NCBI GenBank assembly: GCA_963920705.1
Contig: OY987231.1
Span: 17,523,024 to 17,587,023 of the forward strand
Direction of reading: 5' to 3'
Source: Odiellus spinosus
Lineage: Eukaryota; Arthropoda; Arachnida; Opiliones; Phalangiidae
Length of the DNA stretch: 64,000 nt
Under the pieces are notes generated by a model, which saw nothing but the letters and a program-made list of their open reading frames with translations, was not told the DNA's origin and made no database searches. This document shows, in pieces, positions 2,990 to 49,938 of the stretch. How positions within the stretch are numbered: the stretch's first letter is position 1; each line of letters opens with the position of its first letter. A program made the translations under genes and the position numbers.

Positions 2990-2996
2990 TTTATAA

Positions 2997-3333
2997 CAGA
3001 AGCCGATGAAACCCTCCTTTGAAGTCTACTACTCCAATGTTCCATATAGGGCTCCTCTCTGTATGGGTAAAATTCCCAATTTTACGAGTTAGAAGGGGTC
3101 CTACTTCATCCCCTCTGTCTACGGAAAATTGGAAATTCTCTCTCTCCACAAACGACGACGTTTTTTGGACGAACTCCAAGGCTTCTAGAGATATTCGCTC
3201 GACGAGCTCCCGCTCCGAAAACATCTACCGTTAGGAGGCGTACGAATCACGCCTTTTGAGAATAACCCATACAGAGGGGGGTAGACAAGACCCGGGAGTA
3301 ATAGACTTCAAAGGAGGGTTTCATCGGCTTCTG
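2997..3333. mobile_element. MITE family A, copy 1 (337 bp)
   Basis: A non-autonomous DNA transposon with terminal inverted repeats of about 39 bp that differ at one position. It begins CAGAAGCCGATGAAACCC and ends with the reverse complement. The 7-bp target duplication TTTATAA lies at 2990-2996 and 3334-3340. A second inverted block inside the ends (CTCTGTATGGGT near 3057 against ACCCATACAGAG near 3268) means much of the element can fold on itself. Short frames run through it on both strands but they overlap the inverted repeats and show no domain. Copies at 4813, 6677 and 12647 are closely similar. Confidence 0.93.
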
Positions 3334-4812
3334 TTTATAATTAAACATTTTTGAAATTTCGGTAATGATTTCGAATAATTTATTTTCTACTAAAATTAGA
3401 AACAATATAAAGTACGATTATTTGATAAATTCATGTTGACGGTAATTATAATTAAATTAATATTTGATACTTTCCCGCAGATAATATGCCCTATTTTTAT
3501 TTTCTATAAGAATTATTAAGTTTAAAAGTAATGCTTAACAGTGGAACTTCTTAAAGGGCAATTCATATTTCCAATATCTTGATCGGGTTACAAGTGAAGA
3601 CACCTTAACCTTTCTTCTCTCTTTTGCCCTTAGCTACGTGGTATATACATATATATAGGCCCTCCATGAGCAATTCAAGCGATATACCAAAAACTTTTAG
3701 GAAGGAGATCGTAGCCTGGTGTTAAGAGCTAGCCCGAAGAGAGTCTCAAAGAAGAAAAGAAGACCCATTATATCTTTTAGCGTTGGTGTATGGGCAGTGG
3801 CTTTTGTTTCCGAGCTTCCATCGCCAGGCGGTTCCGTGGGATATTAATAGGCGTAAAACAGCCCTTAACTTTATAGACTTCATTTAGCAACCCAATGGAG
3901 ATTGAGAGAGCTCCCAAAAAAATGAAGGAACTCGAGCGGAAAGCCTTTCAAAAAAACTTATTTTTCATGAGTGTTCCGTTATAAGCTATTAACTTATTAT
4001 CGTATTTCTATATTGGGTTAGTATAATCGCTTTAGACATTTTTACACTCTGCACCAACTTAATAATTTGCGGGTTTCTTACAAGGGGCAGGTCAACCCCA
4101 TGATTAAATTGAGTAAAATAATAATAATTATTTTTGTTTGATTCATTAAATGTGGTTCTATTCAGACCTAATGTAAGATTTAAGTAGTCAATATAAATTC
4201 AATTTAACCAATTATAATTTCTTAATTCTAAAACCCCAGAGATCAACACGATTTCTATTCGTACGAAAACTAACGAATCACGACGCTTGACGCACGAGTT
4301 GGAGTTGATTTTAACCCAGAAGATTAACATGGGATTCTAAGGAAGTTGTAGTTTATGTGACACAACGTTTCTCGAGTCCCACGTCAACCTATCCAGGCGA
4401 TAGAAGAGTGATTGGCGGGTTCAAAGTTCACCCGAAAAAAAAGCGTCGAATTTCGGAAATGGATTATTAATTTTGAAAGACGATGCTCGGCGAAAGATAA
4501 CGCCTCCTATCAACCTAGTGCCTTAACCTCTAACGGTCACCTTTCAGTAATCTCGAAGTCGAGCTGTTTGGGGAAATCACAAAATCGATATGCAGACATT
4601 AATGAAGTAAACATGAGCTAATTTTGTGAACGATAGTGGAATTACTTGGTGGCCTTATTTAATGCAGTCTTTGATATAAACTTTATTTTCAATTCGAAAA
4701 AATAGGAAACTCGTATAGCTCGAGCTAAAAAATAACTAAAAATGAATAAAATTAAGCATGAAGTTTGTATCTACGTTAAAGGAGTTCTTTTAAAACAGGT
4801 TTTCAGAAGAGG

Positions 4813-5158
4813 CAGAAGCCGATGAAACCCTCCTTTGAAGTCTACTACTCCAATGTTCGATATAGCGCTCCTCTCTGTATGGGTAAAATTCCCAATTTTA
4901 CGAGTTAGAAGGGGTCCTACTTCATCCCCCCTGTCTACGGAAAATTGGAAATTCTCTCTCTCCACAAACGACGACGTTTTTTGGACGAACTCCAAGGCTG
5001 CTAGAGATATTCGCTCCAATCGCTCGACGAGCTCCCGCTCCGAAAACATCTACCGTTAGGAGGCGTACGAATCGCGCCTTTTGAGAATAACCCATACAGA
5101 GAGGGGTAGACAAGACCCGGGAGTAATAGACTTCAAAGGAGGGTTTCATCGGCTTCTG
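4813..5158. mobile_element. MITE family A, copy 2 (346 bp)
   Basis: It has the same ends and interior as the copy at 2997-3333. The 7-bp target duplication GAAGAGG flanks it at 4806-4812 and 5159-5165. Compared with copy 1 it carries a small insertion near 5015-5025 that partly repeats the neighbouring CGCTC motif, which looks like a local slippage duplication. Otherwise the two copies differ at only a few positions, so both insertions are fairly recent. Confidence 0.93.
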
Positions 5159-5165
5159 GAAGAGG

Positions 5166-6669
5166 GTATTTTAGTCTACGTAGCGAGCTTGCTAAAAAGG
5201 TTCGCGGTAAATAAAGTTCGAAATGAAAGAGATAGATCAGCACCACCAGGGCTGTCTCACGTTGGGCGCTGAAATAACCCACAACTAAACAACCCGGTTG
5301 CTTGAATGCAGTTTGACAACAAGTGCCAAACAATTATAAAGCAAGAAGTAAATTTTTGAAGTAGGCTTAACAAGGGATTCATATAGAGTTTGATATCTCG
5401 TCGTTAACGAGTCTCCGACCAATCACTTGAGAGCTTGGTGCTTTATTCCGACAATAAAACGTTTTAACACTAGGTTTTAAAAGAGGCACGCGCTTTGGTT
5501 CGTTAGTAAAAATAGGTATGTGACGTGCATCCGGCTTTAGAGAGCTTGAGTTTCTACATTCGGCCTATTGCAAACCCGCCTTTACAGGAGAATCAACAAA
5601 ATCTCAGATATTACAACCGCATGAAAGAAATATTTTATAGAGCTTTCCCGTTTATAAAGAATCTAGAACCATCATTCATTTTAAGCGACGCAAAATGTTT
5701 AATTGAACAATCAAAAATTAAAAAAAAAAGTATCCCTTAATTTACAACCACGCGCTATAATTAAGAAGAAACAAAATATATACTTCAAAACAAATTAACT
5801 CCGAAAATTTCCAAGGAACTCTTACATATCTCGGGCGGCGATGCCTTAAAGTTAAGGAGTATATATAGTGTTTAATAACAGTCAGTGCCATCTCATTTTC
5901 CGGACGGCTTAACTAATTTAAATTGGCTTTCAGAGTACCGCGTAGTTCTAGAAAACCACCATTTTTTTCCGCTCAAAATCTTCCCATACTTTAATCGTCT
6001 TCTAAATTAAGAGGAGAGCTCCTTGAGTTTCCCTCGTGTTATTAATTTCGACACTAATTATTGTATATACTGTCTAATATCGTCGCGAAAATTAGTCTCG
6101 ATTCGCCGTTAACCTAATCTAATAAGGACACTTATCGGTCGGATAGTTAAACAGTATAGGCAGCTAGCCAAATTATAATAAGACGCGTTTTCACGATCAA
6201 TGAACCGAGTGATTTATAGAGAGTTAGAGAAATATATCAATGCTAATTAGGAAAGTGAACACGAAATTTAATTACCAATGTGGTGAAAACGATTAAATTA
6301 ATGAATAAGGTTAAAAGAAACTGTTTTTAAATGAATATTTTTTGGAAAATAAGTTCAAAATTGAACATATTATATGTTCAATATCCAACTTACGTTGAAG
6401 TATCTGTTTATCTGTTTAATTACTACTAGAATCATGACAAATAAAATAGGTTAGGTATACGTCCAACTTATGAACAATTTTGTTTGTTTGTTGGTATCAC
6501 ATTATATTTGCTGGATCAAAACCTGAACAAAGGGTGGATTGTGTTTCATTTCTTTAAACTCAACTTATGAGCCTGTTCAGGGACACTTTCTTATATTCCA
6601 AAGCATGGAGAAAAGTAGGTGAAATTGAAACTGTTTTATTCACGAGGATGTTTCTAGGGGAGAATTAGC
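5166..6669. other. Unassigned AT-rich stretch
   Basis: No gene recognised. The longest frames are about 70 codons and have no familiar motif. A near-perfect 21-bp palindrome with a 10-bp stem lies at about 6361-6381 (TTGAACATAT and its complement). I see nothing else repeated from elsewhere in the window. Confidence 0.5.
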
Positions 6670-6676
6670 GTAGTAT

Positions 6677-7002
6677 CAGAAGCCGATGAAACCCTCCTTT
6701 GAAGTCTACTACTCCAATGTTCCATATAGCGCTCCTCTCTGTATGGGTAAAATTCCCAATTTTACGAGTTAGAAGGGGTGCTACTTCATCCCCCCTGTCT
6801 ACGGAAAATTGGAAATTCTCTCTCTCCACAAACGACGACGTTTTTTTGACGAACTCCAAGGCTGCTGGAGATATTCGCTCGACGAGCTCCCGCTCCTCTA
6901 CCGTTAGGAGGCGTACGAATCGCGCCTTTTGAGAATAACCCATACAGAGGTAGACAAGACCCGGGAGTAATAGACTTCAAAGGAGGGTTTCATCGGCTTC
7001 TG
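6677..7002. mobile_element. MITE family A, copy 3 (326 bp)
   Basis: Same inverted termini as the other family A copies, with the 7-bp target duplication GTAGTAT at 6670-6676 and 7003-7009. It is shortened by two small deletions relative to copy 1. One, near 6896, removes about seven bases of the GAAAACAT region; the other, near 6950, removes GAGGG-like bases from the inner right arm. These shift the frames that the other copies keep open, which argues that those frames are not under selection. Confidence 0.93.
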
Positions 7003-7009
7003 GTAGTAT

Positions 7010-9094: not shown

Positions 9095-9098
9095 TTAA

Positions 9099-9390
9099 AG
9101 AGAGAATGCAGCCTTATAATAAGTGATTTTTTATCAATTCATTACCGTTAATAATAATCCACCAGTAAAAAGATTACCAGACAAATATTCAACTAGAAAT
9201 AAATTTAAATCTTACACGTAAAATAGGCTTAGCTGGATTCATGGAGATCCTGATTTTTTTCTCAAATTGATGGGTCAGCAACCAATGAGCAAAGGTCGTT
9301 AAGGTGTTTTGATCTCTGACCCTTCAATGCGAATCCAGCTAAGCCTATTTTCCGGGTAAGTTTTAAATTTATTTCTAGTTTAATATTTTG
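9099..9390. mobile_element. TTAA fold-back family C, copy C1 (right end degraded)
   Basis: The left arm starts directly after TTAA (9095-9098) with AGAGAGAATGCAGCC. It then runs through the family's ordered blocks: GTGATTTTTTATC, CCAGTAAAAA, ACTAGAAATAAATTTAAA and AATAGGCTTAGCTGGATTC. After a loop of about 90 bp that can itself pair (GATGGGTCAG with CTGACCCTTC) the arm returns inverted, from GAATCCAGCTAAGCC to TTATTTCTAGTTTAATATT. Beyond about 9390 the right arm has diverged and its terminal block is not recognisable, so the right boundary is approximate. Confidence 0.75.
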
Positions 9391-10226
9391 ATACCTTTAT
9401 TGTTAGAAAGTAAAATCGATAAACCATCACTGGATATTCCTCTGATCTAAGAATCAAGTTACACAGCCATAAGCCTCGCCATATACAGGTAGGTCAAAAT
9501 AGGTCAAAGAATTACGCCACTCGTGTATCGGAGAAAATAGAGGATCCTCTTGGTTCCATCGCGGTTTCATTTCAAATTCAAGAGGTGAACTCGAAGATCG
9601 AGCCTCTTTGAAAAGCTAACACAACAAGGCATGATTTTCGGGTTCTGCCGAGTGTCGTTCTTTTTTCTCCTCACTTTTTATTTTAGTCTTTTTTATGTTC
9701 CCGAAAGAAATCGGTCCTCGCTCCTTTTTAAAGTTCAGAAAGAGAATAATATTGAGGAAAGAAGACACTGAGGAGAACCCTTTTCCCCAATGGTTTTGAG
9801 GAGAGAAAAAAAAAATATGAACGAAAAAGTTTTCCTTTGAAAATATTTTCAGTTATTCGCGATACGTGTCATTTTTTTCTCTACGAGAAAATGGGTATGA
9901 ATTTAAAACGACTATTTTTCACTATACTTGTATATGAGGCAAATATCGAAAACCTTCCAAGGAGGATTACCCTGACATGGCAATCGTAAATTTAAAGATC
10001 CATTCATATTTCATCCCAAAAATGATTAAATTCGTTCAATTCCTACAAAATATTAAAATTACGATCTTGGTACGTTAAAATTAATATTTTTTACCACCTA
10101 TGATAGAGGTTTTTCACCTATATTATATCCTATGTCGATTACAGTTACTATTTGTAACAATAAAAACTTAACTCCTTTAGCTTCACGCGTTTCTTCCGTT
10201 AGTAAAATTATCAAAACATAAACTAA

Positions 10227-11073
10227 ACTTGTCCATAATTTGAAAGTCGATCAATAGGCAATAATTCCTTGTCGATCATTTGAAAGTGGATCAATCGGCC
10301 AAACTCCTTGTCGGTCGTTTGAAATAGGATCAACTTGAAATAACCCTTGTCGATCATTTGAAAGACGATAAATTGGCACCAACCCCTTGCCTATCATTTG
10401 AAAAACGATCGATTTGAAATAACCCTTGTCGATCATTTGAAAGTCGATCACTGGCAATATTGCCTTGTTGATCACTTAAAAGGCATTAATGCCTCGCCGA
10501 TCAATTGGCAATAATGCCTCGCCGATCAATTGGCAATAATGCCTCGCCGATCAATTGGCAATAATGCCTCGCCGATCAATTGGCAATAATGCCTCGCCGA
10601 TCAATTGGCAATAATGCCTCGCCGATCAATTGGCAATAATGCCTCGCCGATCAATTGGCAATAATGCCTCGCCGATCAATTGGCAATAATGCCTCGCCGA
10701 TCAATTGGCAATAATGCCTCGCCGATCAATTGGCAATAATGCCTCGCCGATCAATTGGCAATAATGCCTCGCCGATCAATTGGCAATAATGCCTCGCCGA
10801 TCAATTGGCAATAATGCCTCGCCGATCAATTGGCAATAATGCCTCGCCGATCAATTGGCAATAATGCCTCGCCGATCAATTGGCAATAATGCCTCGCCGA
10901 TCAATTGGCAATAATGCCTCGCCGATCAATTGGCAATAATGCCTCGCCGATCAATTGGCAATAACCCCTTGCCGATCAATTGGCAATAACCCCTTGCCGA
11001 TCAACTGGCTACAACCCCTTGTCGATCAACTGGCTATAATTCCTCGTCGATCATTTGAAAGTCGATCACTTGG
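10227..11073. repeat. Minisatellite: 25-bp array inside a 40-bp array
   Basis: The core is 19 units of 25 bp, essentially identical (10491-10965, unit GCCTCGCCGATCAATTGGCA plus ATAAT), followed by three variant 25-bp units to about 11040. Both flanks are older, diverged units of about 39-40 bp (10227-10475 and the last unit near 11041-11073) with the order CCTTGTCGATCATTTGAAAG then TCGATCAATAGGCAATAATT. There are no unique spacers, so it is not a CRISPR array. Frames read through it simply follow the repeat period. Confidence 0.95.
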
Positions 11074-11079
11074 ATCTAT

Positions 11080-12640
11080 CCCGCCTATATGTCACCCTAA
11101 ATCTAGGTATAACATAACCCAATCCGCGCGTGGTATACGATAAAATAAAATATAAACGGGACGGTACTTTGCAACGCGAGTAGCAACAGTTTCTTACTTA
11201 ATTCGAAACCCACCCTGCGGGTCATTGATTTTCCATCTCGAGTTCATTATTCCGTTATATATGAAAAGAAAGAGAGGAGACGCGAGGCCGGTTCAAAAAG
11301 GAAAAGAGTCCGCGTTAGATTGGCTAATACGATTGCCAAAGCTTAAGGGGGAATCGAAACGCCTGAGGGAATGTTACCTGAACTGGCTTAATTGCTACTT
11401 TAGCTCTCTAGCGTCGCTCTCCAAAGAGACCCGAGAAAGCTATTGGGAGTTTCGTATATTCGAACAGAGCGTCCTAATTGACTTACCTCCAAACTACACT
11501 GTCAAGACAGCCTGTCTAATCCACCTAGGACTGAACCGGACGACGGGCGCCTTTCTAGCGGGTGTCCTAGGCAGTTCGGATTTCTATTAACGTCGTTTAA
11601 AACAGACCTTAATTTAATTCGGACGACTTCTCGAACGGCACGCTCTAAACATAGAAAGCGCTCTAGTATATACTGTATATGTTAAGATTAGACGACGGAA
11701 ATTTCACCCATAGAATATATATCTAATTATAAATACAGCTTATAATACGAGATAGTTGATAAAATTAGCTTACATATAGGATAGGGTTGGACTATATAGC
11801 CCAAATCAATCTTATAACACTAACTTAGAACTTAGAAGCAAGAAATATATACACGTAATGACGTCAATTACTTTCTCCTTGAATGCCTTTTTATTTACTT
11901 CTGATCAAAGAAGTTTGCGACAGCCACAATGAGGGTTTTACACGATCTAACAATCCGCCTCAGACTTGGCTATTTTGCAAACTAATCTTTAAAAACCCTT
12001 ATGGTTCTTTCCATAAGTCAGGCAGTGGGCGGACGAAATTCTAAGTATAAAAAAACCTAGACTGCACATTCTAAGAATATAAGTTTATCATTCAAAAACT
12101 CTCGAGATACTTTTTAAATTACTTTCTTAAGTGGCTATTCTGGCCTTCACCAAAATAGACAACTCATTAAGAGCACGAATTGGCCTCCACGGAGGGCTAG
12201 GATAGCTTTAGCCTAATTACGTCTATACAGGGCAAAAGGTAAAATATAGCTAGAGCGTTTAACATCGCCTGTGAACTCAACATATCCGTTTTAGCATAAG
12301 CTAATTATAATCTCTAAGTACGCCAAATGACAATGTTGTCTATTAAATAAATTATTAGAGTTCAGGAGATTTTCTGGGGTCCCATACTCTCGGAGCTCCC
12401 GAAACTGACACCTTAGGGGTCACGCTAGAACACTGTGTTACCAGCAAATACCCTACACTCTATTTGAAGAAAAATGTATGGACGGTCAAAATCAGTTTGA
12501 CCTTTTATCCCGTACAAAACTATTCCCCAAAATCTCTTAGAAACATAATTAAGGAGGTAGAGGTTGATACCTAGAACATTTTACGTTCTGAAATCTGAAA
12601 TAAATTGGTCCAATAGAAGCTAACGTAACGTCTCCTTTAT
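11080..12640. other. Unassigned stretch with one 121-codon frame
   Basis: The plus-strand frame at 11225-11590 is one of the longer ones here, with a somewhat higher GC content than its surroundings. It encodes a basic then mixed protein (starts MIFHLEFIIP) and shows no signal peptide, transmembrane segment or motif that I can name. No splice signals or neighbouring coding exons support it. The rest of the stretch is plain AT-rich sequence. Confidence 0.4.
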
Positions 12641-12646
12641 TGATAC

Positions 12647-12983
12647 CAGAAGCCGATGAAACCCTCATTTGAAGTCTACTACTCTAATGTTCCATATAGC
12701 GCTCCTCTCTGTATGGGTAAAATTCCCAATTTTACGAGATCGTAGGGGTCCTACTTCATACCGCCCTGTCTAAGGAAAATTAGAAATTCTCTCTCTCCAC
12801 AAACGACGACGTTTTTTTGACGAACTCCGAGGCTGCTAGAGATATTCGCTTGACGAACTCCCGCTCCGAAAATATCTACCGTTAGGAGGCGTACGAATCG
12901 CGCTTTTTGAAACTAACCCATACAGAGAGGGGTAGACAAAAACGGGAGTAATAGACTTCAAAGGAGGGTTTCATCGGCTTCTG
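12647..12983. mobile_element. MITE family A, copy 4 (337 bp)
   Basis: Same termini as the other family A copies, with the 7-bp target duplication TTGATAC at 12640-12646 and 12984-12990. It is the most diverged copy: several substitutions (for example CGAGATCGTAGG in place of CGAGTTAGAAGG near 12735) break the frames that are open in copies 1 and 2. The host sequence around the insertion is itself a short imperfect palindrome. Confidence 0.92.
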
Positions 12984-12990
12984 TTGATAC

Positions 12991-14280: not shown

Positions 14281-14328
14281 TTTGAAAATTTGCAAAATTT
14301 TGTAATTAACTTTTTTTAACTGTACATA

Positions 14329-15224: not shown

Positions 15225-15541
15225 CAATAATTCATTCAGGTTCCATAAGAATATGGGAGGGCCGCGATTCAATAACCATCCTCCCAAACTTTGTAGCAAA
15301 AGTTCGTCTGCTTCGAATCGATTTTTCAAGTAAATCGCTCCTGACAACTATTATTAACCCACGCCACTAACGACCTTGACATAATATTTTGGGTAAAAAA
15401 AAATGGAGCCGACCGAAAAAATATCTAAGCGTACAAATGTTGCGAAAATTGCAGACGAACTTTTGTTACAAAGTTTGGGAGGATGGTACCAGAGGCTAAA
15501 GCTATGCTCCCATATTCTTATGGAACCTGAATGGATTCTTG
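15225..15541. mobile_element. MITE family B, copy 1 (317 bp)
   Basis: Terminal inverted repeats of about 35 bp: CATTCAGGTTCCATAAGAAT on the left and its complement on the right. The left tip reads CAATAATTC where the other copies have CAAGAAT. The 7-bp target duplication TGTTTAC is at 15218-15224 and 15542-15548. A second inverted block of about 36 bp (ACCATCCTCCCAAACTTTG on the left, its complement on the right) makes most of the element a hairpin. A frame starting at 15403 (MEPTEK...) runs out through the right terminus. Confidence 0.93.
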
Positions 15542-22805: not shown

Positions 22806-23218
22806 CAGAGGTATATAATAACCCCCTTCGGGGGGAAGTATGAAAGGTAGGCAAAATCGGCGAACAGCAAGTGCCCGGCGTAAATCGCGGCGGACCGACA
22901 CACCGCTTTACTCCCAAAAAATAGTTACACCATTTTGAACCTCACTAAATTTTCCCTACGCCCACTTCCGGAACTCGCGAGCTGAAGTCAACCTTCGACT
23001 CCATTTTAACAGACAGCCTGACTCCTGAGACAGGAAGTTCTAAACACAAATCGAGCCGTCTTGTTTATACAAAGACCATTTACTAGAGTAGCGACATTGA
23101 GAAGTCCAGCGCGAGCTAGTGGCCTAGATAGTCAGCAGCGGGCTCTTGTTGTTCGTGATTTTTAGCATTGGTAGTATAGGGGCTTTCATACTTCCCCCCG
23201 AAGTATTATATACCTCTG
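22806..23218 (+). mobile_element. MITE family E, copy 1 (413 bp)
   Basis: Terminal inverted repeats of about 41 bp begin CAGAGGTATATAATAACCCC and include a small internal palindrome (CCCCCTTCGGGGGG). The right end has lost about seven bases of that palindrome. The 7-bp target duplication ATGGAAC is at 22799-22805 and 23219-23225. Beyond the ends the arms stay imperfectly complementary for another 40-50 bp (AAATCGGCGAACAGCAAG against CTTGTTGTTCGTGATTTT). The interior is GC-richer than the surroundings and has no coding potential that I can see. The second copy at 49365-49782 is inverted relative to this one. Confidence 0.94.
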
Positions 23219-23493: not shown

Positions 23494-23815
23494 CACAAGT
23501 AAATCATCCTTCAAGTTTATAAGACGAGTTAGACGACATACTGCGGGTGACAATGAAGCGAATCCGATTTTCTCAGTCCATGGTTTCACCCTAAGTATTC
23601 CGAAATTTGTACAGAAAGGTGGCCTGGCGGCCGGGCGAGACACGCTCCTTCGTTTCCCTAGAGAGAAGGGAGAGTTGTTTTCCGTCGATACATTTTCACC
23701 GCCGTATACGTCAAGAAAGCTCGGCGCAATATTAGCAGCGAATACTTAGTTCGAATCTCAACCGCTAGAGAGGACAATTTCGAATTCCGTATCTCGACCG
23801 TTTAGAGTTTTTGGA
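23494..23815 (+). repeat. Dispersed repeat R5, copy 1
   Basis: This matches the reverse complement of 57943-58267 over its full length, with substitutions and some indels near the middle. Conserved blocks include CACAAGTAAATCATCCTTCA at the start, GGGCGAGACACGCTCCTTCG in the middle and GTATCTCGACCGTTTAGAG at the end. No inverted termini or target duplication are visible. Both copies hold a short hairpin (GGGTGACA...TCACCC). It may be an unclassified retroposon or a segmental duplication. Confidence 0.8.
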
Positions 23816-24039
23816 TTTTCAGAACGACATATTAATCATAATATGCTTTGTCGTAAACTTGAATAATGATTTAACTTAGCATTTAAACCTGTTTGTTATT
23901 TAATTAATAAAAAATATTAATTATATGTTATTGTATTTATTAAAATAAATTATGTTTTATGATAAAAACCTATAAAAAAATCACGACTATCCTTTTTATC
24001 GTGGAATATATACAGGGGAAAAAAAGCTTTATCACCCAA

Positions 24040-25389: not shown

Positions 25390-25742
25390 AGATAGAATGC
25401 AACATAACATCATGTGATTTTTTATTGTTTCCTTATCGTTTAAATCTAGGCCTAATCCAACAGTAAAATATTAAACTAGAAATAAATTTAAAACTTACCC
25501 TGAAAATAGGCTTAGCTGGATTCATGGAGATCACCTGAACTCCCCATATAAGGACTAGCGACCAATGACATTGATCGATAGCTCTTATATGGGGAAGGCA
25601 GGACCTCCATGAATCCAGCTAAGCCTATTGGATGGTAAGTTTTAAATTTATTTCTAGTTAATATTCGTTTGTTAATTTTTTACTGTTGGATTAGGCTTAT
25701 TTAAACGATAAAAAAAATCACTTGTTAGGTTGCATTCTCCCT
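25390..25742. mobile_element. TTAA fold-back family C, copy C2 (353 bp, complete)
   Basis: The best-preserved copy. TTAA lies directly outside both ends (25386-25389 and 25743-25746). The left arm starts AGATAGAATGCAACATAAC and the right arm ends GTTAGGTTGCATTCTCCCT. The arms are complementary over most of the element and meet around a short centre that also pairs (CTCCCCATATAAGGA with CTTATATGGGGAAG), so the single strand would form one long hairpin. TTAA duplication is typical of piggyBac and Kolobok transposons; the AGGGAGAATGC end cannot be assigned to either by eye. No coding capacity. Confidence 0.92.
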
Positions 25743-27258: not shown

Positions 27259-27574
27259 CAAGAATTCATTCAGGTTCCATAAGAATATGGGAGGGCCGCG
27301 ATTTAATAACCATCCTCCCAAACTTTGTAGCAAAAGTTCGTCCGCTTCGAATCGATTTTTCAAGTAAATCGCTCCTGACATCTATTATTAACCCGCGCCA
27401 CTAACGACCTTGACATAATATTTTGGGTAATAAAAATGGAGCCGACCGAAAAAAGATCTAAGCGTACAAATATTGCGAAAATTGCAGACGAACTTTTGTT
27501 ACAAAGTTTGGGAGGATGGTACCAGAGGCTAAAGCTATGCTCCCATATTCTTATGGAACCTGAATGGATTCTTG
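27259..27574. mobile_element. MITE family B, copy 2 (316 bp)
   Basis: Full-length copy with the ends CAAGAATTCATTCAGG and CCTGAATGGATTCTTG and the 7-bp target duplication GTATATT at 27252-27258 and 27575-27581. The interior is nearly identical to copies 1 and 3, including the internal inverted block and the frame beginning MEPTEKRSKR at 27436. The near identity suggests recent movement. Confidence 0.94.
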
Positions 27575-32605: not shown

Positions 32606-33110
32606 AGGGAAAATGCAACCACAACACGTGATATTCCTTATCATTTAAACCAGTAAAAAAAATTACAAGCAACTATTGAAATAAATTTAAAACTTACCCG
32701 GAAAATAGGCCTTAGCGGAATTCATGGAGATGCTGGGTCAGAAACCAATAAACAAAGACTCGTCGTTAAAGCAAGATCTCAATTCAATTTTTCGATGACC
32801 CATGAATGCCAAGCAATTAAAGATCTCCATGAATCAAGCTAAGTCTACTTTCCGGGTAAATTTTAAATAGGGAGCCAGTGAGGGAGACATTGACACGTCA
32901 GAGGTTTCTATCTCTCACCTCGGTGTCATCCCCTTTATAGCGAGGGAGATAAAGAATTCGCCCTTAAAAGCGCTCTCCCAGTAAGGGGGCTCCATGACGT
33001 CAGGTTTTCTTACCCCTTGGCTTTTTGCTGTCTCCCTATAGTTCATATTTGATTGTAATTTTTTTACTGGTGGATATGGAATCATAAAAAAACACTAATT
33101 GTTCGATTTG
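32606..33110. mobile_element. TTAA fold-back family C, copy C3, interrupted by a nested element
   Basis: The left arm follows TTAA (32602-32605) with AGGGAAAATGCAACCACAAC. The family blocks AACTTACCCGGAAAATAGGC and ATTCATGGAGATG follow, then a loop, then the inverted return ATCTCCATGAATCAAGC. The right arm is cut by an insertion at 32870-33036 and resumes with ATTGTAATTTTTTTACTGG, fading out near 33110 where the terminal block is degraded. The right boundary is approximate. Confidence 0.78.
32870..33036. mobile_element. Nested GC-rich element with TA flanks (167 bp)
   Basis: A GC-rich block lies where the right arm of fold-back copy C3 should be continuous, which defines it as an insertion. 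The ends GGGAGCCAG and CTGTCTCCC pair over nine bases with one mismatch, and TA lies directly outside each (32868-32869 and 33037-33038). ACGTCAG occurs near both ends in the same orientation. Only one copy is in the window, so superfamily assignment is not possible. Confidence 0.55.
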
Positions 33111-34498
33111 TCTATAATATTGAATAAATATATCTTTTAACCTCAAAATCATTTGTCTGTTTTGTTTTGTTTTAAAACACGGAATTGTATTGTGGAAAAT
33201 ATTCACAAAATGTAAGAAAACAGACAGAGATGTTTCATGAAACTAAATAGAAAAAAATAATATCTCGGGAAACCGAGAACAAAATCTGAGAGACAATTTT
33301 TTTCCCCGCAATGTAATATCAAATCTGAAGTAACCACAGAAGAGGCTTTTGTTCCTATTGAAAACTGAATTTTCCCTGGGAATATAAGTATCTTCGAAGG
33401 TTGTAATAGAGTATATATCTTTCTTTCATTCTTCCTATACGCGGGTTTGTAGAAAACAAACTAAGAATGTTACATCGGTACGTCGGTGAAGGAACTCGCG
33501 AGATAGTAGTATATATTTTTTTTCTTTTTTTTCCCGCGTTTTTTGGAAGAAAAAAAGCAAAGAAACAAGAAGGTTCGTAGGGTCAGGGTAGTTACGCTAC
33601 AAGACGGCTTTTCGCGGCTCGAGTTAAGTTGTTAATTGAAACTGCGCCCAAAGTAAAAAAAGATTAACATTTTTCATCTTAAAGGGAGAATGCAACCTAA
33701 CAACAAGTGATTTTTTATCGATTCCTTACCCAACAGTAAAATATTTACAAACAAATATTCACCTAGAAATAAAAACTTACCATCAAAATATGTTAAGCTC
33801 GATTCGTGAATATTCGGAATTTTCTTCGCATCGAAGACTCATCCTCCAATTCAATGTTATTGGAAGTCTCATGGAGACTTAACGACGGGCCATCAATGAG
33901 AAGTAATTCAGGATCTCAATGAATCCAGCTAAGCCTATTTCCGAGCAAGTTTTAAATTTATTCTTGCTTAATATTTGCTTGTAAATTTCTAAACTGATGG
34001 ATTAGGCCTATTTAAACGATAATCTCCGCGTTAAAGAAACCTTTCAATTAGGCCCGTGAAGAGTTTCTCTCGTAAGACATTTTAGAGGGGGAAGAGAATC
34101 TATCTTTACCCTTTCGTTTAGTCACCCCTGCCTTTGACAGTGTCGGTGGCGGACATAACGAAGAACGGAATAGTCACTCAAAAATAAGATTTCGCGTAAC
34201 TAAAAAGAGAAACGTAACGTATCCATTTCGGTTGGCATGGAAGAAAAAAAAAAAAAAAAAAAAAATGTACAGAAAGCAAAAAAAGAAATACATAGGTCGG
34301 ATCAATTTTATCGGTTTCCTAGGCGACCAGTTTGGCTATAACAATGTTTTTGCTTTTATTTATCACTATATGGGGTGCGAACGTGTCAAATCATATTAGC
34401 TGGAAAAAAGTCTCGCCCGCAATACATTGAACAGTTCAGTTTATTATAAAGACGCGTTCGCATTTAGGTGCGCACTCAAATATCTTCTCAATCTTGCT

Positions 34499-34703
34499 TT
34501 AGTCGGGTTCACACTAGAGACTTTGAAACCATTTAAAGACTTAAATCGGAAAGGTCAAAATGGAAAAATTTAAGGTCACCTCTAGAGATCCTTCGTAAAA
34601 AAAATTGATTTAAACTTTGGAAAAGGTTTGAAAGTGCCTGATCTTCTAAAACCAAAACGATTGGAGATTGGGATTTATAAAGAAAACATTCCTTCCATTC
34701 AAC
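34499..34703 (+). repeat. R6-like terminus and following sequence
   Basis: Starts AGTCGGGTTCACACTAGAGA and continues CTTTGAAACC. It resembles the terminus of the R6 element at 35778 (AGCTGCGTTCATACTAG) and a second terminus-like segment at 35064 (AGCTACGTTCACACTAAAGA, then CAGTTTGAAA). It lies inside the segment that splits fold-back copy C4. The far end of this element was not found. Confidence 0.4.
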
Positions 34704-34994
34704 CAAGAAGGATCAGATAAGGAGAGGAAAAGTGGGAACGGCGCGGCTCCTACTGCGTCGGCCTAAACTCCCACTCTGGGAGAACGGGGGACAGACGGGG
34801 GTAGAGATGCTTCGTGGTAAATTGTTGCCACGTGGGTAAAACGAATCCTTGATGAGACGCGCTAGCTAGCGACCACGTGACAACATTTTACCTCGAGAAT
34901 TTCCTATCCCCCTTTCCACCCGAGTGGGAGGTTGGCTCTTCTCTCTCTAACTCAACGCAGCCCCACTTTTCCTCTCCTTATCTGATCCTTCTTG
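34704..34994. mobile_element. MITE family G (291 bp)
   Basis: The left end CAAGAAGGATCAGATAAGGA is matched by the exact complement at the right end, and the terminal inverted repeat is at least 32 bp. The 7-bp target duplication ATTCAAC is at 34697-34703 and 34995-35001. Inner arms pair as well (GGTAAATTGTTGCCACGTGG with CCACGTGACAACATTTTACC) around a central GCTAGCTAGC palindrome. It is GC-richer than the surroundings and non-coding. It is the only copy in the window, but the duplication makes the boundaries firm. Confidence 0.92.
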
Positions 34995-35063
34995 ATTCAA
35001 CGGCGTGTGTACAATTTGTTAGAAGAAGACAATCAAATTGATTTTTAATCGCGACTTTAAAGC

Positions 35064-35100
35064 TACGTTCACACTAAAGACAGTTTGAAAAGGTATATTT
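35064..35100 (+). repeat. R6-like terminus fragment
   Basis: AGCTACGTTCACACTAAAGA followed by CAGTTTGAAAAGG repeats the terminus seen at 34499 in the same orientation and resembles the start of the R6 element at 35778. It is cut off where the fold-back right terminal block begins. Confidence 0.4.
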
Positions 35101-35777
35101 GAACGATAAGGATAGGTTGCATTCTCCCTTTAAATATTCATGTCGTGATTCCGAATTATTCCTCAACAACCTCGAGTTTTACAGACTAAAATAAAGCGCG
35201 TAAACACCCAGTTGTAAAATATCCCGTGATAGTGTATTTTTCTTTGAGTTTATTTTTGGAAGAGGGTAAGGACAATGTTAAAGGGAGCGAAAAACGTCAC
35301 GTGAATGAAAATCTGAAGGATGAAAAAAAATCTTATTCTATTTTTGTAACTGACAAGGGACGCACGCGCGCACGCTAGCGACTGGGGTAATCGCACGCTT
35401 CGAAAGCTTAAAAGACAGCCAAGACTTTTCAACAAGCTATAGGAGTAGACGAAACTTGGCTTGAAGGATAACCCGGCCGCTATAGATACGTTTCTTTCAC
35501 GCCGGATTGAGAAAAAAAAAAGAAAGAGAACCTCTGTTTTTAAAATCTAGAAATTCCTTCTAAAAAGAAAAAGTAAAAACATCTAGACATTCGGCTAAAG
35601 TTAAACGATTCCGTTAAATGTTGTTTATAACAGTTTATATCGATTGATTTATAATATCGGGAAGTGGGTTAAGAAAGCTTTGTCGTCCAACAATATGACG
35701 TCAGGAGAAACCGAGAGGACAACGGCATGGAAAGAAAGATGCCACAATTTTATCTCCAGAATGAAAAGGAAAACATT

Positions 35778-36380: not shown

Positions 36381-36696
36381 CAAGAATCCATTCAGGTTCC
36401 ATAAGAATATAGGAGGGCCGCGATTCAATAACCATCCTCCCAAACTTTATAGCAAAAGTTCGTCCGCTTCGAATCGATTTTTCAAGTAAATCGCTCCTGA
36501 AATCTATTATTAACCCGCGCCACTAATGACCTTGACATAATATTTTGGGTAATAAAAATGGAGCCGACCGAGAAAAGATCTAAGCGTACAAATGTTGCGA
36601 AAATTGCAGACGAACTTTTGTTACAATATTTGGGAGGATGGTACCAGAGGCTAAAGCTATGCTCCCATATTCTTATGGAACCTGAATGGATTCTTG
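36381..36696. mobile_element. MITE family B, copy 3 (316 bp)
   Basis: Full-length copy with ends CAAGAATCCATTCAGG and the complement, and the 7-bp target duplication GTTATAA at 36374-36380 and 36697-36703. Differences from copy 2 are few (for example ATAGGAGG for ATGGGAGG near the left end and TATTTGGGAGG for AGTTTGGGAGG in the inner arm). The MEPTEKRSKR frame starts at 36558 and here runs on into flanking DNA to 36824. Confidence 0.94.
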
Positions 36697-37228: not shown

Positions 37229-37362
37229 AGGCCTAGGATTTCTTCTGCCTGTTTCACTGAAAGTGGGCTCACCTTCTGAGCTTCCTATTGGGTAGCGAGG
37301 CGAGAGAAAGCCTGGAGGACGAGTTTGTTTCCAGGGTGACAGGCAGAAGTAATCCAAGGCCT
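37229..37362. mobile_element. Short TTAA element (134 bp)
   Basis: The inverted ends AGGCCTAGGATTTCTTCTGC and the near-complement GCAGAAGTAATCCAAGGCCT pair over about 24 bp with two mismatches. TTAA lies immediately outside both ends (37225-37228 and 37363-37366). The interior is GC-rich (CTGGAGGACG, CCAGGGTGAC) and non-coding. The ends are unrelated to fold-back family C, so this is a second TTAA-targeting family. Confidence 0.8.
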
Positions 37363-37366
37363 TTAA

Positions 37367-38060: not shown

Positions 38061-38064
38061 GTAT

Positions 38065-38127: not shown

Positions 38128-39028
38128 TTCCGTAGAGTCCGCTATTCCCAAACAGAAAATTTCTCTTTAACCACCCACCCCGCAAGATTTCCAAGTCACA
38201 ATTTCCTCATCCTTCTCCGACATAGCCCCTCGCGCGACAAAGACAAGTTTAACATTGGAACGTGAATCCCCCAATATGTGGATGAAAATTCTACCCAACT
38301 CCTATTTTGCTTGAACAAGAAAAAAGGTTTCGAGAAGTATTATTTTGATGCATATAAGTAGTAGCCAATTTACAACTAGTATATCTACGCTGTACAGTAC
38401 TTTATTTATTGTAAAGCGTCTGCATCTATTTCTGATAACGAACCATATGTAAATGGGATATTTGTTGCTCGATATCATTGTCTCTATTGGTTCAAATTTA
38501 AATCCTTTCGTTAAGTTGGGTATTCCAGCGAATTTTACTCGACCAGCTGGACATGAACTGAGGATGTGGTCAGTTTGACGTTTACAGTAAAAAAAAGGGG
38601 GGATATTTCTACTCCGGTCTTGACCACCTCGTTTTGACAAACAAAGCGTGTTGGTAGTGGCAAGTGGGGGAACTATAGAGAAGTTGGTTTTTCTACGAGA
38701 GTTCGTTGTTTTCCCAAGGATCAAACCGTGTGACAAGAAATGTTCGGGGTGGGAAAGACATAGCTGGTTAAGAACGAAGCACCCTAACGGGCATCTTCTT
38801 TTATTTGGAAGTAGGGTATACCTCCTTTATGTCTTTACTTTGATTTAAAATTGAAACGTAACGTATTATCCAGTATCTTTTTCGATTGAGGGGCAGGGTC
38901 GTCAACTTTGGGGTCTCCTCTCTTTAGCAGCTTCTCTTTCTTCCGCAGTGACTCAGGGATGGATGAAAGTTTTTGCAAGAGGACGAGCCCCTCACCCGTG
39001 GTACGAGGATAAAGATACATTTTCTCTT

Positions 39029-39063
<35 letters not shown>

Positions 39064-42000: not shown

Positions 42001-43137
42001 TCATTTTATTGAAACGTTTTAGACCTATATCTTAAATTAGGTTTCAATGGTACCGTATTTCGCTGACAGAATTCCTTCATTAATTATGCAAATAAATAAA
42101 AGTATTTTTAAATAGAACTCATTTCTATAGTTTAAAATCCTCGACTATCCTGCGCACGCGTTTTTGAGTTTTGGATTTAATAATTATACTAAGCCTAACT
42201 TCGAATTAATTGTTTAGATTTAAATAAACCGGAAACCGCCTTTTCTTAAATCGATTTGAATCGGTTTCTCGAAACTGCTTCGGGAACCAGTTTCAAACCG
42301 AATCGGTTTCAACAACGGATAGATGAAGCTACAATAAATCGATTTATAAAGATAATGCGTGAACACATGACGCTTAAATCTATTCCTGGTGATTTGAATA
42401 TCGGTTTGATTTTACCGTTTAAAATCGATTAAATGCTAGTGTGACAGTACCTTAATGGACTTTACGGATAACGCTTACCATTGATTTACACTGTCTTAAC
42501 TTTGAAATTACATATTTAAAGTGAAAAAATGATTAATTTACCAACATGATATTGATTAGTACGTTAAAAATGAAGTTCTGGTTTGGGTTATTAAAACTAT
42601 AAACAAAAATTAGATTTTGATTTTCACCGTTCCTTTAGAAATGTGAAAACCAGATTGGCGCCTATATACGTATCTATTTTTCCACTCGCATCTCTATCTA
42701 AGCTTGGCCTCCGGAAAGGAAAGGAACGAACCTTATTAACTCTTGTTTGTTCTTCGAAAATAACGTTGGTTCGTGCAATTTGGAAGGCGAGAAGATTTAA
42801 TTGTAGAAGGGAAACCCGAACGGTTACGCTATAGGCTTTCTGGGTCATTAGAAAGAGTAAGCGAACTACTTTATCAAGACCCTCCGACGTATGTTAAAGC
42901 AAGCACCCCTTGTTATATCGCTACCAAGCTATAGCACTAATTATTTGACGAAGTGATTGGGGATATATACTTGTTGAGAATCGAAACCACGAGTCACGAG
43001 TTCGTTGCATTCGACAATAAAATTGAAGGTAGTGAGAGTTTTAAAGTATCTAGTAAATTTCCGCTCTAGTTACTACGCTCGCGTATAAGTCGAGTAATAT
43101 AAACTAAATTGAGAATACTTTGTTTTCAATTAATTAT
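38128..43137. other. Long stretch without recognisable gene
   Basis: About 5 kb. The 144-codon minus-strand frame at 38302-38736 contains CKRQTDHILSSCP, which superficially recalls the zinc-binding tail of some non-LTR polymerases but lacks the full cysteine/histidine pattern. A 32-base poly-T run lies at 39031-39062. A GC-rich patch occurs at 41640-41960 and a CT-rich patch at 40240-40410. R6 copy 2 (42222-42455) lies inside this stretch. Confidence 0.45.
42222..42455 (+). mobile_element. R6 element, copy 2 (left end lost)
   Basis: Matches 35815-36048 from the ACCGGAAACCG-like block through AACTGCTTCGGGAACCAGTT, the block CAATAAATCGATTTATAAAG, and TCCTGGTGATTTGAATATCG, ending with CTAGTGTGACAGTACCT. 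The left inverted terminus is missing or unrecognisable. About 20 extra bases lie before the right end compared with copy 1. Confidence 0.65.
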
Positions 43138-43775
43138 GACTAATTGGTAGACAAATTAGTTAAATTGGTAGAAAAATAAGTTAAATTGGTAGAAAAATAA
43201 GTTAAATTGGTAGAAAAATAAGTTAAATTGGTAGAAAAATAAGTTAAATTGGTAGAAAAATAAGTTAAATTGGTAGAAAAATAAGTTAAATTGGTAGAAA
43301 AATAAGTTAAATTGGTAGAAAAATAAGTTAAATTGGTAGACGAATAAGATAAATTGGTAGACGAATAAGATAAATTGGTAGACGAATAAGTAAAAATGGT
43401 AGACGAATAAGTAAAAATGGTAGACGAATAAGTAAAAATGGTAGACGAATAAGTAAAAATGGTAGACGAATAAGTAAAAATGGTAGACGAATAAGTAAAA
43501 ATGGTAGACGAATAAGTTAAAATGGTAGACGAATAAGTTAAAATGGTAGACAAATAAGTTTAAATTGGTAGACGAATAAGTTTAAATTGGTAGACGAATA
43601 AGTTTAAATTGGTAGACGAATAAGTTTAAATTGGTAGACGAATAAGTTTAAATTGGTAGACGAATAAGTTTAAATTGGTAGACGAATAAGTTTAAATTGG
43701 TAGACGAATAAGTTAAATTGGTAGACGAATAAGTTAAATTGGTAGACGAATAAGTTAAATTGGTAGACAAATAGA
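43138..43775. repeat. Minisatellite with 21- and 22-bp units
   Basis: About 30 tandem units built on AAATTGGTAGACGAATAAGT. The unit changes along the array: AAATTGGTAGAAAAATAAGT with 21-bp spacing (about 43160-43335), two GAT variants, AAAATGGTAGACGAATAAGT (21 bp, to about 43550), then a 22-bp form with an extra T (about 43555-43705), and 21-bp units again to the end. The minus-strand frame at 43140-43553 gives a 7-residue repeat (TYSSTIF-like) only because the period is 21 bp, and it ends where the period becomes 22. Confidence 0.96.
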
Positions 43776-46700: not shown

Positions 46701-46966
46701 AACTGGACACCCTAGTAAAACGGAACATATAGGGGACAGACCGCTAGCAATTAAGCGTTCAAAGTGCTGATCGGATTAGGGTTACGCCATCCACATTTAT
46801 CGATCCAACAGAGAGATCACCGAATAAATCTTAGCGTGTAGCCAAGGTTTAGATCAAGACGCGGGTTCTGACGTTTTGTCGTAACAACTAGAGCGTACAT
46901 TGGCGGCTATTGCGTGCCTTTCGATTGAGAGAACTCACAAAGATTGAAATATACCTTTAACTATTT
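43776..46966. other. Unassigned stretch
   Basis: No gene recognised. A strong pyrimidine-rich acceptor-like site ends near 44940 (TTGTTTGTTTCCAG) and is followed by a short open frame but no convincing donor. GC content rises in 45760-46200 and 46480-46580 without any motif that I can interpret. Confidence 0.4.
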
Positions 46967-47234
46967 ACTACTTTTGTCCAATATGTTATGAACTTTTGGT
47001 AAAGTTAAAAATCGAGCCAACACAGAACAAAGTGAGCCTTTTGCCCTAATTTTTAATTTTAGTCGATTAAAGATAGCTTCAACTTTACCAAATTACTTTC
47101 ATTGTAAACTTTTGACGTCAACGTTTCGGTCTATTTGTAATATTTCGCTACTGGCGTTAACTACTTTTGTCCAATATGTTATGAACTTTTGTTAAAAATC
47201 GATTAAACACAGAACAACGCGAGTCTTTTGCCCT
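46967..47234. repeat. Direct duplication of about 78 bp, offset 193 bp
   Basis: The segments 46967-47045 and 47160-47234 share ACTACTTTTGTCCAATATGT, TATGAACTTTTG, AAAAATCGA and CACAGAACAA, with small indels. The DNA between them is not repeated elsewhere in the window. They look like an old local duplication or the paired ends of an unidentified element. Confidence 0.75.
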
Positions 47235-47824
47235 TTTCACTATTTCACTAGAAACTCTCATCATACCTGCTGGTTTGACTGAGATATTAGTTCTATAGGG
47301 AAAACGCCAACATTGACGAAGTATATAGAGTGGGAGAGAGAGTCAGCGATGAATTTGAGGAGAGGAGAAAATGGTTAATTAACAGATTGAATAGAGAAAG
47401 AGTGAGTGGAGGAACTACGTGAACGCAAAAAAGTATAGCTCGACTCGTTTTGGGAAGCTTTTGAGAAGCCCTGGTTTTGTTTGGTAACTATATTAGAATG
47501 TTTGGCCAAGTCTAGGTCGTTGCTATAATTGAGACGCGGTAAAAAGATGATTGCGTCATTTTTTTTTAACAAAGGAAAGGGTAATCTAATAATGGTTTTA
47601 TTAATGCTCTGGTATCTTAATTTTACTGTAATATTACTGATAAACTTGCCACAAAGTCAATTTTGCATGGTTAATTCAATAAAACTTATACATTTTTATT
47701 AACATATGGAATCGGCTAATTAGTTTATCTAGGTTGACCCGGAAATTTTGCGAAAGGCTACGCGTAATATTTTTTAATACTATTAAAAATTCATATTCCA
47801 AAAGTATATTTATTTCCCACTTAA

Positions 47825-47862
47825 AGGGACATGCAACCTAACAACAAGTGATATTCTATCGC
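47825..47862 (+). repeat. Fold-back family C left-end fragment
   Basis: It follows TTAA (47821-47824): AGGGACATGCAACCTAACAA, then CAAGTGATATTCTATCG. Only the outer left terminus is present. It is followed at once by a fragment of family F (47875-47898). Confidence 0.65.
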
Positions 47863-47874
47863 CTTTATTTTTCA

Positions 47875-47898
47875 CTGTAGGCTCTATAATAACCACGC
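47875..47898 (+). repeat. Family F fragment
   Basis: CTGTAGGCTCTATAATAACC matches the CTGTAGGCTCTACAATAGCC end of family F (inverted copy at 973-1047). It directly follows the fold-back fragment, so one element probably inserted beside or into the other. Confidence 0.5.
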
Positions 47899-48516
47899 TA
47901 ACCATGATACTGAATATTAATTTTATGTTTAATGTAGGAAAAACTATTGAAAAAATGGTTTGAATTATTAATCTAATAATTACGCCTAACTAACCCTTGA
48001 AGAACCGACTAGAGTATATCGTATATCGGCCGATAATATAGGAGGACAGTGTTGTTTGTGGAAGCAAATTAGGTTGGCGCTGTAAGGAAGAATTTTTAAA
48101 GCAGCTAGCTAAGATTGAACGTGGTTAATGGCCTTTATAAAACTAAAAGTCTTTTCATCGGTGATTCTTTTAATTAATTTTCGAGGGCATATAATTTCAA
48201 TGGATCAAAGCGTGGTTTATATAAAGTCTCCTAGTCAAAGTCCCTTAGGACTTGCGCAAAATTAAATAATGTAAAATATCATACACGGGAAAAACGGGGG
48301 TTGGTTTATTTTTAAAGTTAAAAGTTGATGGCAGGAAGAATGAAGGGAGAAGCTATAGCTAATGCTAACGTAATACGTTCTTAGAGGCCACTGAGAGTAT
48401 CGTTTGCGCATGGTCAAAGCTGAAATTTTGTTAGAAGAGACGCTTGAATCGTGTTTGAAGAATCGTTGAAAGACACGCGAAAATATTCGAGCAGGGAGAC
48501 ATGCACGAGGGTTTTT

Positions 48517-48580
48517 AACTACTTTTGTCACTGTTTGCCGTTGGAGGACGATTATGAAAGCCAGGTTTTGTTATTCATGT
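48517..48580 (+). repeat. Fragment related to hairpin element H
   Basis: ACTACTTTTGTCACTGTTTG, CCGTTGGAGGACG and ATGAAAGCCAGGTTTTGTTA match the right arm of the element at 61731-61905 (GGACGCTCATGAAAGCCAGG). The opposite arm is not found upstream, so this is a partial copy. Confidence 0.65.
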
Positions 48581-49149
48581 CCCTTCTTATGTCTAATAGT
48601 CCATTATGAAAGTCATATTGGTATAGTTAACTGATTACACGTAAAAATTTTCACAACTTTTCAATTTTGCATAAATAATTGGATACCAATTTGCTTTTTG
48701 GATAATACTACACTGCACCTTGCATTGTACGCACCGGGGACCCGGGGGACGAAAAATTTTATTTTTAAAAATCATTCATATTACGTATAAACGCAAAAAA
48801 CCATATTTTCTTTTTTTTTTCTCTAAAATGAAAAAGAAAATGTGGGGAAAACTGATTTATTAACCAGGTCAAAGAAAACAGATTTCACACTGCACGAGAG
48901 AGGAAAAAATAAATTAATTCAAACTGGAAGCTTGATGGAAATAAGAATAGGAAAAAAATTTAAAATCGATTCGTAGCTCGGCGGAAACGAATTATCCGAC
49001 CTGTCATCATAGCTTCAAGCGAAAACTCACCACCAAAAAATTAAAACCAAGAAAAACCAAAGCCGAAACGAAATCTATTGAAAATTTAAATTTGGAGAAA
49101 CAAAAGCTCCCCAATTTCCTCTATAGCTTCTGCCTTCACGGAGTTATAA

Positions 49150-49152
<3 letters not shown>

Positions 49153-49180
<28 letters not shown>
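49153..49180. repeat. Poly-T run of 28
   Basis: Uninterrupted T run followed by AGCTGGCGGGCACC. No target duplication is seen around it. Confidence 0.9.
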
Positions 49181-49364
49181 AGCTGGCGGGCACCGAATTT
49201 CAATCTCAACTTTATTAAGTCGCGTTATCATTTATGCATTTCGTTTTTCTCGAGATTCCTAACATTAAAATGTAAACTATATTCGTAAAATAGGTAATTA
49301 CAATACTCATAGGCCTTCTTTGAATTATGTCTATTGCTTTTGATATTTTAAACATATATTGTAC

Positions 49365-49782
49365 CAGAGGTATATAATAACCCCCTTCGAGGGGAAGTAT
49401 GAAAGCCCCTATACTACCAATGCTAAAAATCACGAACAACAAGAGCCCGCTGCTGACTATCTAGGCCACTCGCTCGCGCTGGACTTCTCAATGTCGCTAC
49501 TCTAGTAAATGGTCTTTGTATAAACAAGACGGCTCGATTTGTGTTTAGAACTTCCTGTCTCAGGAGTCAGGCTGTCTGTTAAAATGGAGTCGAAGGTTGA
49601 CTTCAGCTCGCGAGTTCCGGAAGTGTGCGTAGGGAAAATTTAGTGATTTTCAAAATGGTGTAACTATTTTTTGGGAGTAAAGCGGTGTGTCGATCCGCCG
49701 CGATTTATGCCGGGCACTTGTTGTTCGTCGATTTTGCCTACCTTTCATACTTCCCCCCGAAGGGGGTTATTATATACCTCTG
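49365..49782 (-). mobile_element. MITE family E, copy 2 (418 bp)
   Basis: Complete copy in the opposite orientation to that at 22806-23218. The right end carries the full 41-bp terminal repeat; the left end differs by one base in the GGGG palindrome. The 7-bp target duplication ATTGTAC is at 49358-49364 and 49783-49789. The interior matches copy 1 with few differences (for example a GATTTTCAAAATGG segment where copy 1 has a base change), so the family moved recently. Confidence 0.94.
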
Positions 49783-49938
49783 ATTGTACCCCATTTTCAA
49801 AATTTTATTTCCCTAGGTAGACATTTTTATCTATTTTTAAATTAAAATGGTAAAAATATATAAATTTAATTTTTGTAAGGTAAAATGACGTAGGGATTCT
49901 GAAAAGTAATTAACGATACGTTTCAAGTAGGACTTTTT

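Follow-up and report, generated by a model that had tools for sequence, protein, structure and literature searches.

Most studies of P-superfamily transposons concern flies, mosquitoes and zebrafish. In the available passages on Galileo, a member of this superfamily from Drosophila, a 7-bp target-site duplication (TSD) is the rule, with a few copies at 8 bp and the consensus GTANTAC (PMC4168063, PMC2775673); the target is described there as a 15-bp palindromic motif extending past the TSD (PMC4168063), and the terminal inverted repeats (TIRs) as about 300 bp to 1.2 kb long (PMC3573991). Excerpts on Anopheles gambiae report high-copy miniature inverted-repeat transposable elements (MITEs) that are related to several P subfamilies and share an 8-bp TSD (PMC1562414), and an excerpt on the Drosophila P transposase structure places GTP in contact with the terminal G of the transposon and gives 8 bp as the P element TSD (PMC7776569). 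Here, we analyzed a 64,000-nt stretch of the 443-Mb Odiellus spinosus genome (OY987231.1: 17,523,024-17,587,023; hereafter, the window) that contains ten MITE insertions from four families, A, B, E and G, and two copies, one older and one decayed, of a fifth family, X. We consider all of them to be non-autonomous cut-and-paste elements that were probably moved by several P-superfamily transposases, a filing based on their TSDs, their target and their neighbours in the genome, and not on a shared terminus.

The ten insertions (four of A, three of B, two of E and one of G) had been proposed from the window alone, and each was indeed found to have a perfect 7-bp TSD and CA(A/G)...TG ends. The family A copies were located on the forward strand at 2997-3333 (337 bp, TSD TTTATAA at 2990-2996 and 3334-3340), 4813-5158 (346 bp, TSD GAAGAGG), 6677-7002 (326 bp, TSD GTAGTAT) and 12647-12983 (337 bp, TSD TTGATAC, 92.6% identity to the first copy). 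Those of family B were on the same strand at 15225-15541 (B1, 317 bp, TSD TGTTTAC), 27259-27574 (B2, 316 bp, TSD GTATATT) and 36381-36696 (316 bp, TSD GTTATAA). The two E copies were inverted relative to each other, one at 22806-23218 on the reverse strand (413 bp, TSD ATGGAAC) and the other at 49365-49782 on the forward strand (418 bp, TSD ATTGTAC), and the G element occupied 34704-34994 on the forward strand (291 bp, TSD ATTCAAC). The sixth TSD position was A in eight of the ten, as claimed, and the second was T in eight rather than the nine originally counted, the exceptions being GAAGAGG and TGTTTAC. The four families had been called unrelated and, in agreement, no similarity above chance was detected between them (best cross-match of 15 bp, E 0.12). 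Their TIRs were 33-41 bp long, and one ATG frame each of A, B and E was translated and compared with Pfam, without a match at E up to 10.

The window was also scanned blindly for 20-nt inverted termini with at least 16 matches, elements of 80-3000 bp and identical flanking k-mers (k = 2-11). At k = 7 this returned 10 hits, which were exactly the ten MITEs. The other lengths gave 2 hits at k = 5, 2 at k = 6, 1 at k = 8, 0 at k = 9-11, and 96, 12 and 16 at k = 2, 3 and 4. On visual inspection, the hits at k = 5, 6 and 8 were taken for artefacts of palindromes or low-complexity sequence, or for structures nested within the same elements, and those at k = 4 included TTAA-flanked elements. An eleventh, older element represented the fifth family, X, and was located at 57837-58267 on the forward strand (431 bp); its TSD had one mismatch (CTTTTAC/CTTTTAG), its TIR was CACARGTAAATCAT, and the imperfect TIR ends were CACAGGTAAATC and CACAAGTAAATC. 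The second X copy, decayed and on the reverse strand at 23494-23873, kept one end intact (CACAAGTAAATCATCC); the other was lost, and no TSD was recoverable.

The TSD length was tabulated across the genome for family A, starting from 576 candidates; 40 of them were scored, and the 30 with the best scores, window copy A1 included, were fetched. A perfect 7-bp TSD was present in 25 of the 30 (24 at the aligned ends, and L030 after allowing mutated terminal bases), a one-mismatch TSD in two (L010 and L013), and none in three (L011, L022 and L025, with a match of at most 2 bp). The 7-bp length prevailed in this family, and no copy had a longer TSD. The exact termini of the other families were also abundant, with forward/reverse counts of 1345/1329 for G, 1105/1069 for E and 1593/1568 for B, and the reversed-sequence control gave zero matches. 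Beyond the window, three diverged G copies found in flanks had the 7-bp TSDs GTGACAT, GCTATAT and GTAATAT, and these were the sole copies of B, E or G tabulated there. In prokaryote genome contigs, the exact A terminus (20 bases) was matched 4 times, which we attribute to chance; in viral contigs, the A and G termini had 0 matches.

A wider TSD scan of the window together with 95 fetched stretches (96 sequences in all; 363,454 bases) gave, at 7 bp, 33 rows of A and 14 further distinct rows, two of which (TTTTAAA) resembled palindrome artefacts. Three new families with CA ends were detected among them, in L015 (CATGGATTAATC, TSD CTTTAAC), L002 (CACTGCC, TSD GTTAGTA) and L014 (CAAAAGTC, TSD ATATTAA), and the others were variants of A and G or elements of the window itself. 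There were 18 other rows and one A row at 6 bp, five rows at 8 bp, four at 9 bp, and two each at 5 and 10 bp; inspected by eye, they were mostly palindromes inside or between MITE copies, and two of the 8-bp rows were hAT-like elements (L078 and L064). The L015 and L002 families had 372 and 835 candidates, respectively. The latter, represented by L002:457-925, looked clustered, since of 40 scored copies, 16 lay on C17 at 6.1-7.5 Mb, five on C4 at 4.6-5.2 Mb and three on C3 at 4.3-4.7 Mb.

The insertions also had a common target preference. We compared 33 MITE sites, 27 of them from A, with the six fetched A copies lacking a perfect TSD at the aligned ends excluded, and the target was a 13-bp palindrome with T(-6) in 26/33, T(-2) in 25/33, A(+2) in 27/33 and A(+6) in 26/33. 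When a matrix was built from the 27 A sites alone and ranked against window positions, it favoured 12 non-A MITE sites (p = 8e-6), and it also favoured four insertion sites of the P transposons described below (p = 7e-4), all within the top 9% of window positions. The original prediction was right that the TSD length, the CA/TG ends and a symmetrical target preference are shared across families. As these three features coincide in families A, E, G and L015, it is unlikely that unrelated enzymes moved them.

Matches to P-superfamily transposases were plentiful in the same genome. PF21787 gave 150 matches among the 150 scored out of 386 candidates, in open frames of up to 929 amino acids (aa), and the P-specific GTP-binding domain PF21788 gave 144 matches from 164 candidates, some of the matches being fragments. 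Families were delimited by comparing near-identical copies, and two could be delimited, P801 and P626. P801 is 3777 bp long with a perfect 31-bp TIR (CGGTGCCTCC...), and its two fetched copies were 100% identical over the element and different in the flanks, where the 7-bp TSDs ATTATAC and TTTGAAG were found. Its open reading frame contained THAP (PF05485), RNaseH_N and GBD, with both PF21787 and PF21788 present, and the protein matched 6p5a, the structure of the P transposase of Drosophila (E = 3.3e-21). The TIR of P626 is a perfect 33-bp repeat, CATGGACTCTAAATCTATAAGGACCAGAAAGCG (CATGGACTC...), with CA...TG ends, and was found only three times per strand in the genome; the P626 protein carried PF21787 and PF21788 and also matched 6p5a (E = 7.3e-19), and THAP was not found in the tested frame. 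The two domains present in both proteins agree with the P-type architecture, in which a GTP-binding domain splits the RNase H domain. The copy on C17 (8098425-8104149) was located within an A-type MITE and had the TSD ACTACAC. For the copy on C3, the 531 bases fetched showed the 3' end at 12225648, the position derived from the C17 geometry (PF21787 match start + 3873; not recorded beforehand), and GACCACC flanked the copy on both sides. In the third copy, on C2, the termini were 12.8 kb apart, and the reading of both ends covers the C17 and C3 copies only. Hence, 7-bp TSDs were found in all four P801 and P626 copies read at both ends.

The 3' ends of all ten window MITEs, P801 and P626 carried a terminal G, giving C...G termini throughout. 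Considering the contact between GTP and the terminal G described in the cited excerpt on the Drosophila P transposase, these ends fit a P-type enzyme, in a way that is not exclusive to it: the CAGGG-type hAT-like elements share the same G. For three further P families (L041, 672 aa and 649 aa), no 3' end or TSD was fixed, because their copies were identical beyond the stretch read; at the 5' boundary, the L041 and 672-aa families begin CATAGAC and the 649-aa family begins AACGCTATC. At L061:4861-4874, the L041 terminus occurs in inverted form with no matching TSD, and no TIR was detected in the 7.4 kb of L066, which holds an 885-aa P gene. An 856-aa P transposase frame was present in four copies 99.9% identical (L041, L042, L043 and L045, the last with a stop), a resemblance that points to recent duplication or transposition. 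In addition, the gene in the P loci L035, L036 and L038 lies next to a palindrome about 600 bp long (89-91% self-complementary).

If P-type transposases moved the MITEs, each enzyme would recognise the terminal repeats of its own family and excise the element; the two 3' ends, with their terminal G, would then be joined to target strands 7 bp apart at the loose palindrome TNNNTNNNANNNA, and gap repair would copy the 7 bp. The idea that one transposase mobilised all four families was not supported, because their termini, which include CAGAAG, CAAGAA and CACARG, with E starting CAGAG, had nothing in common beyond CA, and this suggests several related transposases instead. P-type and Dada transposons had both been named for duplications near this size, and the P type is the likeliest mover by the TSDs and target of P801 and P626. 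Dada fits poorly, since the passages on it describe a 6-7-bp TSD, no TIRs and insertion in small-RNA genes (PMC3706591), and the MITEs have TIRs of 33-41 bp and dispersed insertions; no part of the window matched an Rfam family at the gathering threshold. Nor did the 7-bp length prove unusual, as had been thought: in the cited Galileo passages it is the usual length for this P-superfamily element (PMC4168063, PMC2775673), and it is thus not peculiar in itself. The families are most likely abundant members of an already known, P-type kind. A bolder proposal, which we put forward only tentatively, is that P transposases radiated in this genome, all with a 7-bp stagger and one shared 13-bp palindromic target, and that their termini (CATGGAC, CATAGAC, CGGTGCC, CAGAAG, CAAGAA and CAGAGG) meanwhile became too different to be recognised as related. 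Several of these enzymes would each have launched a MITE burst of more than 1,000 copies, and 7 bp might in that case be the widespread condition in the superfamily and the 8 bp of Drosophila P a variant.

Several observations weigh against movement by P-type enzymes. In the P loci screened, L031-L086, we found no element that carries a transposase together with A, B, E or G termini. This was a partial screen, in which L031-L060 extend 1500 bases to each side of the domain, with many element ends outside, and L067-L086 each consist of one upstream stretch, 2.0-2.2 kb long, next to one of 20 P matches. In L061-L086, only weak terminus matches (at least three errors) and inserted G copies in L083 and L078 were detected; the matches to A, G or P801 termini in L061, L068, L072, L077 and L079 had 3-4 errors or indels. 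The MITE interiors showed no convincing similarity to the P loci apart from these G copies. Among the B, E and G terminus places listed for contig C1 (the first 100 of each, out of 2,174 to 3,161 per family), none was within 6 kb of a listed P match. Moreover, the P evidence comes from two delimited families, and one of them, P801, has CGG...CCG ends and not CA...TG; the 649-aa family also lacks a CA end at its 5' boundary. Regarding the target, B1 and the L002 element scored under the window median in the A-trained matrix and B2 at the 17% mark, T(-6) was kept in just three of seven further MITE sites, and the four P sites matched the motif partly, with T(-2) in two of the four. Two candidate partners were rejected. 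In L082, a TIR resembling that of A precedes a PF21787 gene of 781 aa, but it lay inside an open reading frame with no terminal repeat following and was attributed to chance, and the G copies adjoining P genes in L083 and L078, considered as element ends, are diverged inserted MITEs.

A different source for the 7-bp duplications would be a hAT lineage with a shortened stagger. The domains of such enzymes were plentiful here (PF05699, 150 matches among the 150 scored out of 220 candidates; PF14291, 78 of 97 candidates), Repbase evidently contains 7-bp hAT entries, and family E begins CAGAG, which fits the hAT end motif, YAGNG. hAT targets also show a similar nTnnnnAn preference, and hAT MITEs, like the elements studied here, have short TIRs and a symmetrical T/A preference at the target; they differ in their end motif and in an 8-bp TSD. 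Against this lineage, the ten window elements and the TSD-bearing A copies have 7 bp and not 8, the ends CAGAAG, CAAGAA and CACARG are unlike YAGNG, with the motif missing from A, B, G and X, and two elements of this genome with hAT-like ends have 8-bp TSDs. These are L078:805-1046, CAGGGACG (CTCATAAA), and L064:3748-4418, TAGGGGTGTGCG (ATTATCAC), the latter with the same insertion in the duplicate L065, and both are filed by the end motif only. A second hAT-like copy in L078 had no recognisable TSD, and CAGGG-type pairs matched at 6 bp only in L039 and at 5 bp only at window 59258-59696. The contrast between 7 bp in P and 8 bp in hAT-like elements is small and in the expected direction; the sole transposase-bearing elements delimited are P-type, with 7 bp, and no hAT transposon is among them. 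Among the B, E and G places listed for C1, none had the right orientation to be an end of an element around a listed hAT match; one B place was 4.5 kb from a PF05699 match and two more (8640893 and 9154182) were 4.6 kb from weak, sub-cut-off PF14291 matches, all in the wrong orientation (the latter two by eye). We regard a 7-bp hAT lineage as unlikely; since hAT matches are common, it keeps some weight, and family E is the one for which it is hardest to dismiss.

Less probable still is that the families were moved by different superfamilies, for instance some by P and some by hAT enzymes, and reached 7 bp by convergence. TIRs with only CA in common would agree with this, as would the poor match of B1 and B2 to the A-derived target motif; it is opposed by the joint occurrence of length, CA/TG ends and palindromic target in A, E, G and L015. 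MULE/Mutator transposons duplicate 8-10 bp, a length that the 7-bp TSDs do not fit, and none of the 72 PF10551 matches of the genome fell in the long B/E intervals described below, to which the search for a partner of this type was confined. A transposase group that has not been described, distinct from P, hAT and MULE and absent from the families searched, is a very improbable mover. What could speak for it comes from the C1 places listed, where short inward-facing pairs (20 of E, 17 of B and 38 of G, with a spacing of 247-378 bp) were accompanied by five longer inward-facing intervals of more than 600 bp, one of E (3.5 kb) and four of B (5.3, 0.67, 0.70 and 5.0 kb), three of them thus 3.5-5.3 kb long (E at C1:17192963-17196504; B at C1:1899078-1904369 and 17157361-17162388), and no PF21787, PF21788, PF05699, PF14291 or PF10551 was among the matches listed for them. 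However, control spacings in other orientations were about as common, so these intervals may be chance or a MITE within a larger repeated element, and the P elements of the genome already explain the length and largely the ends and the target. As a separate observation, exact B termini on C1 were often 5.0-5.3 kb apart in mixed orientations (seven spacings among the first 100 listed places), as if the B MITE sat inside a larger repeated element, such as a long terminal repeat element, or had a long form.

Taking P-type movement as the preferred explanation, the MITEs resemble Galileo, as far as the cited passages describe it, in the 7-bp TSD and in a palindromic target that extends beyond it, and Galileo too has many non-autonomous copies. 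The Galileo TIRs given there are long compared with the 33-41 bp found here, and the outer target base is T(-6) in our elements versus A in the AANGT motif, as we read the published passage. The A. gambiae P-MITEs of the cited excerpt are similar in their high copy number and in having one TSD length across families; their TSD is 8 bp and each is matched by its ends to a P subfamily, whereas here the length is 7 bp and the partial screen gave no partner. P801 and P626 share with the Drosophila P element the similarity to 6p5a, the RNase H and GTP-binding domains, the THAP domain in the case of P801, and the terminal G, and they differ from it in having 7-bp TSDs instead of the 8 bp given in the excerpt on its structure. 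The results suggest that TSD length and target motif can help to file MITEs that have no terminal sequence in common. With well over 100 P-type transposase genes or fragments, copies that are nearly identical and exact MITE termini in the thousands, such a genome would be a good place to study what sets a 7- or 8-bp stagger, how a palindromic target is chosen, and at what pace terminal repeats change while the target choice persists.

The window contained other repeats. TTAA-flanked elements with TIRs were located at 25390-25742, 33683-35129 and 37229-37362, with the termini AGGGAGAATGCAACCTAACA and AGGCCTAGGATTTCTTCTGC, and the second of them encloses the G MITE; we take them to resemble piggyBac- or Kolobok-type non-autonomous elements. 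Another repeat, palindromic and about 200 bp long, with the core GGATTCATGGAGATC and no clear TSD, was found at 9183-9388, 25480-25653 and 32687-32867, and near 33909, 56781 and 63032. Finally, tandem arrays were observed at 10357-11181 (25-bp units) and 43058-43757 (21/22-bp units).

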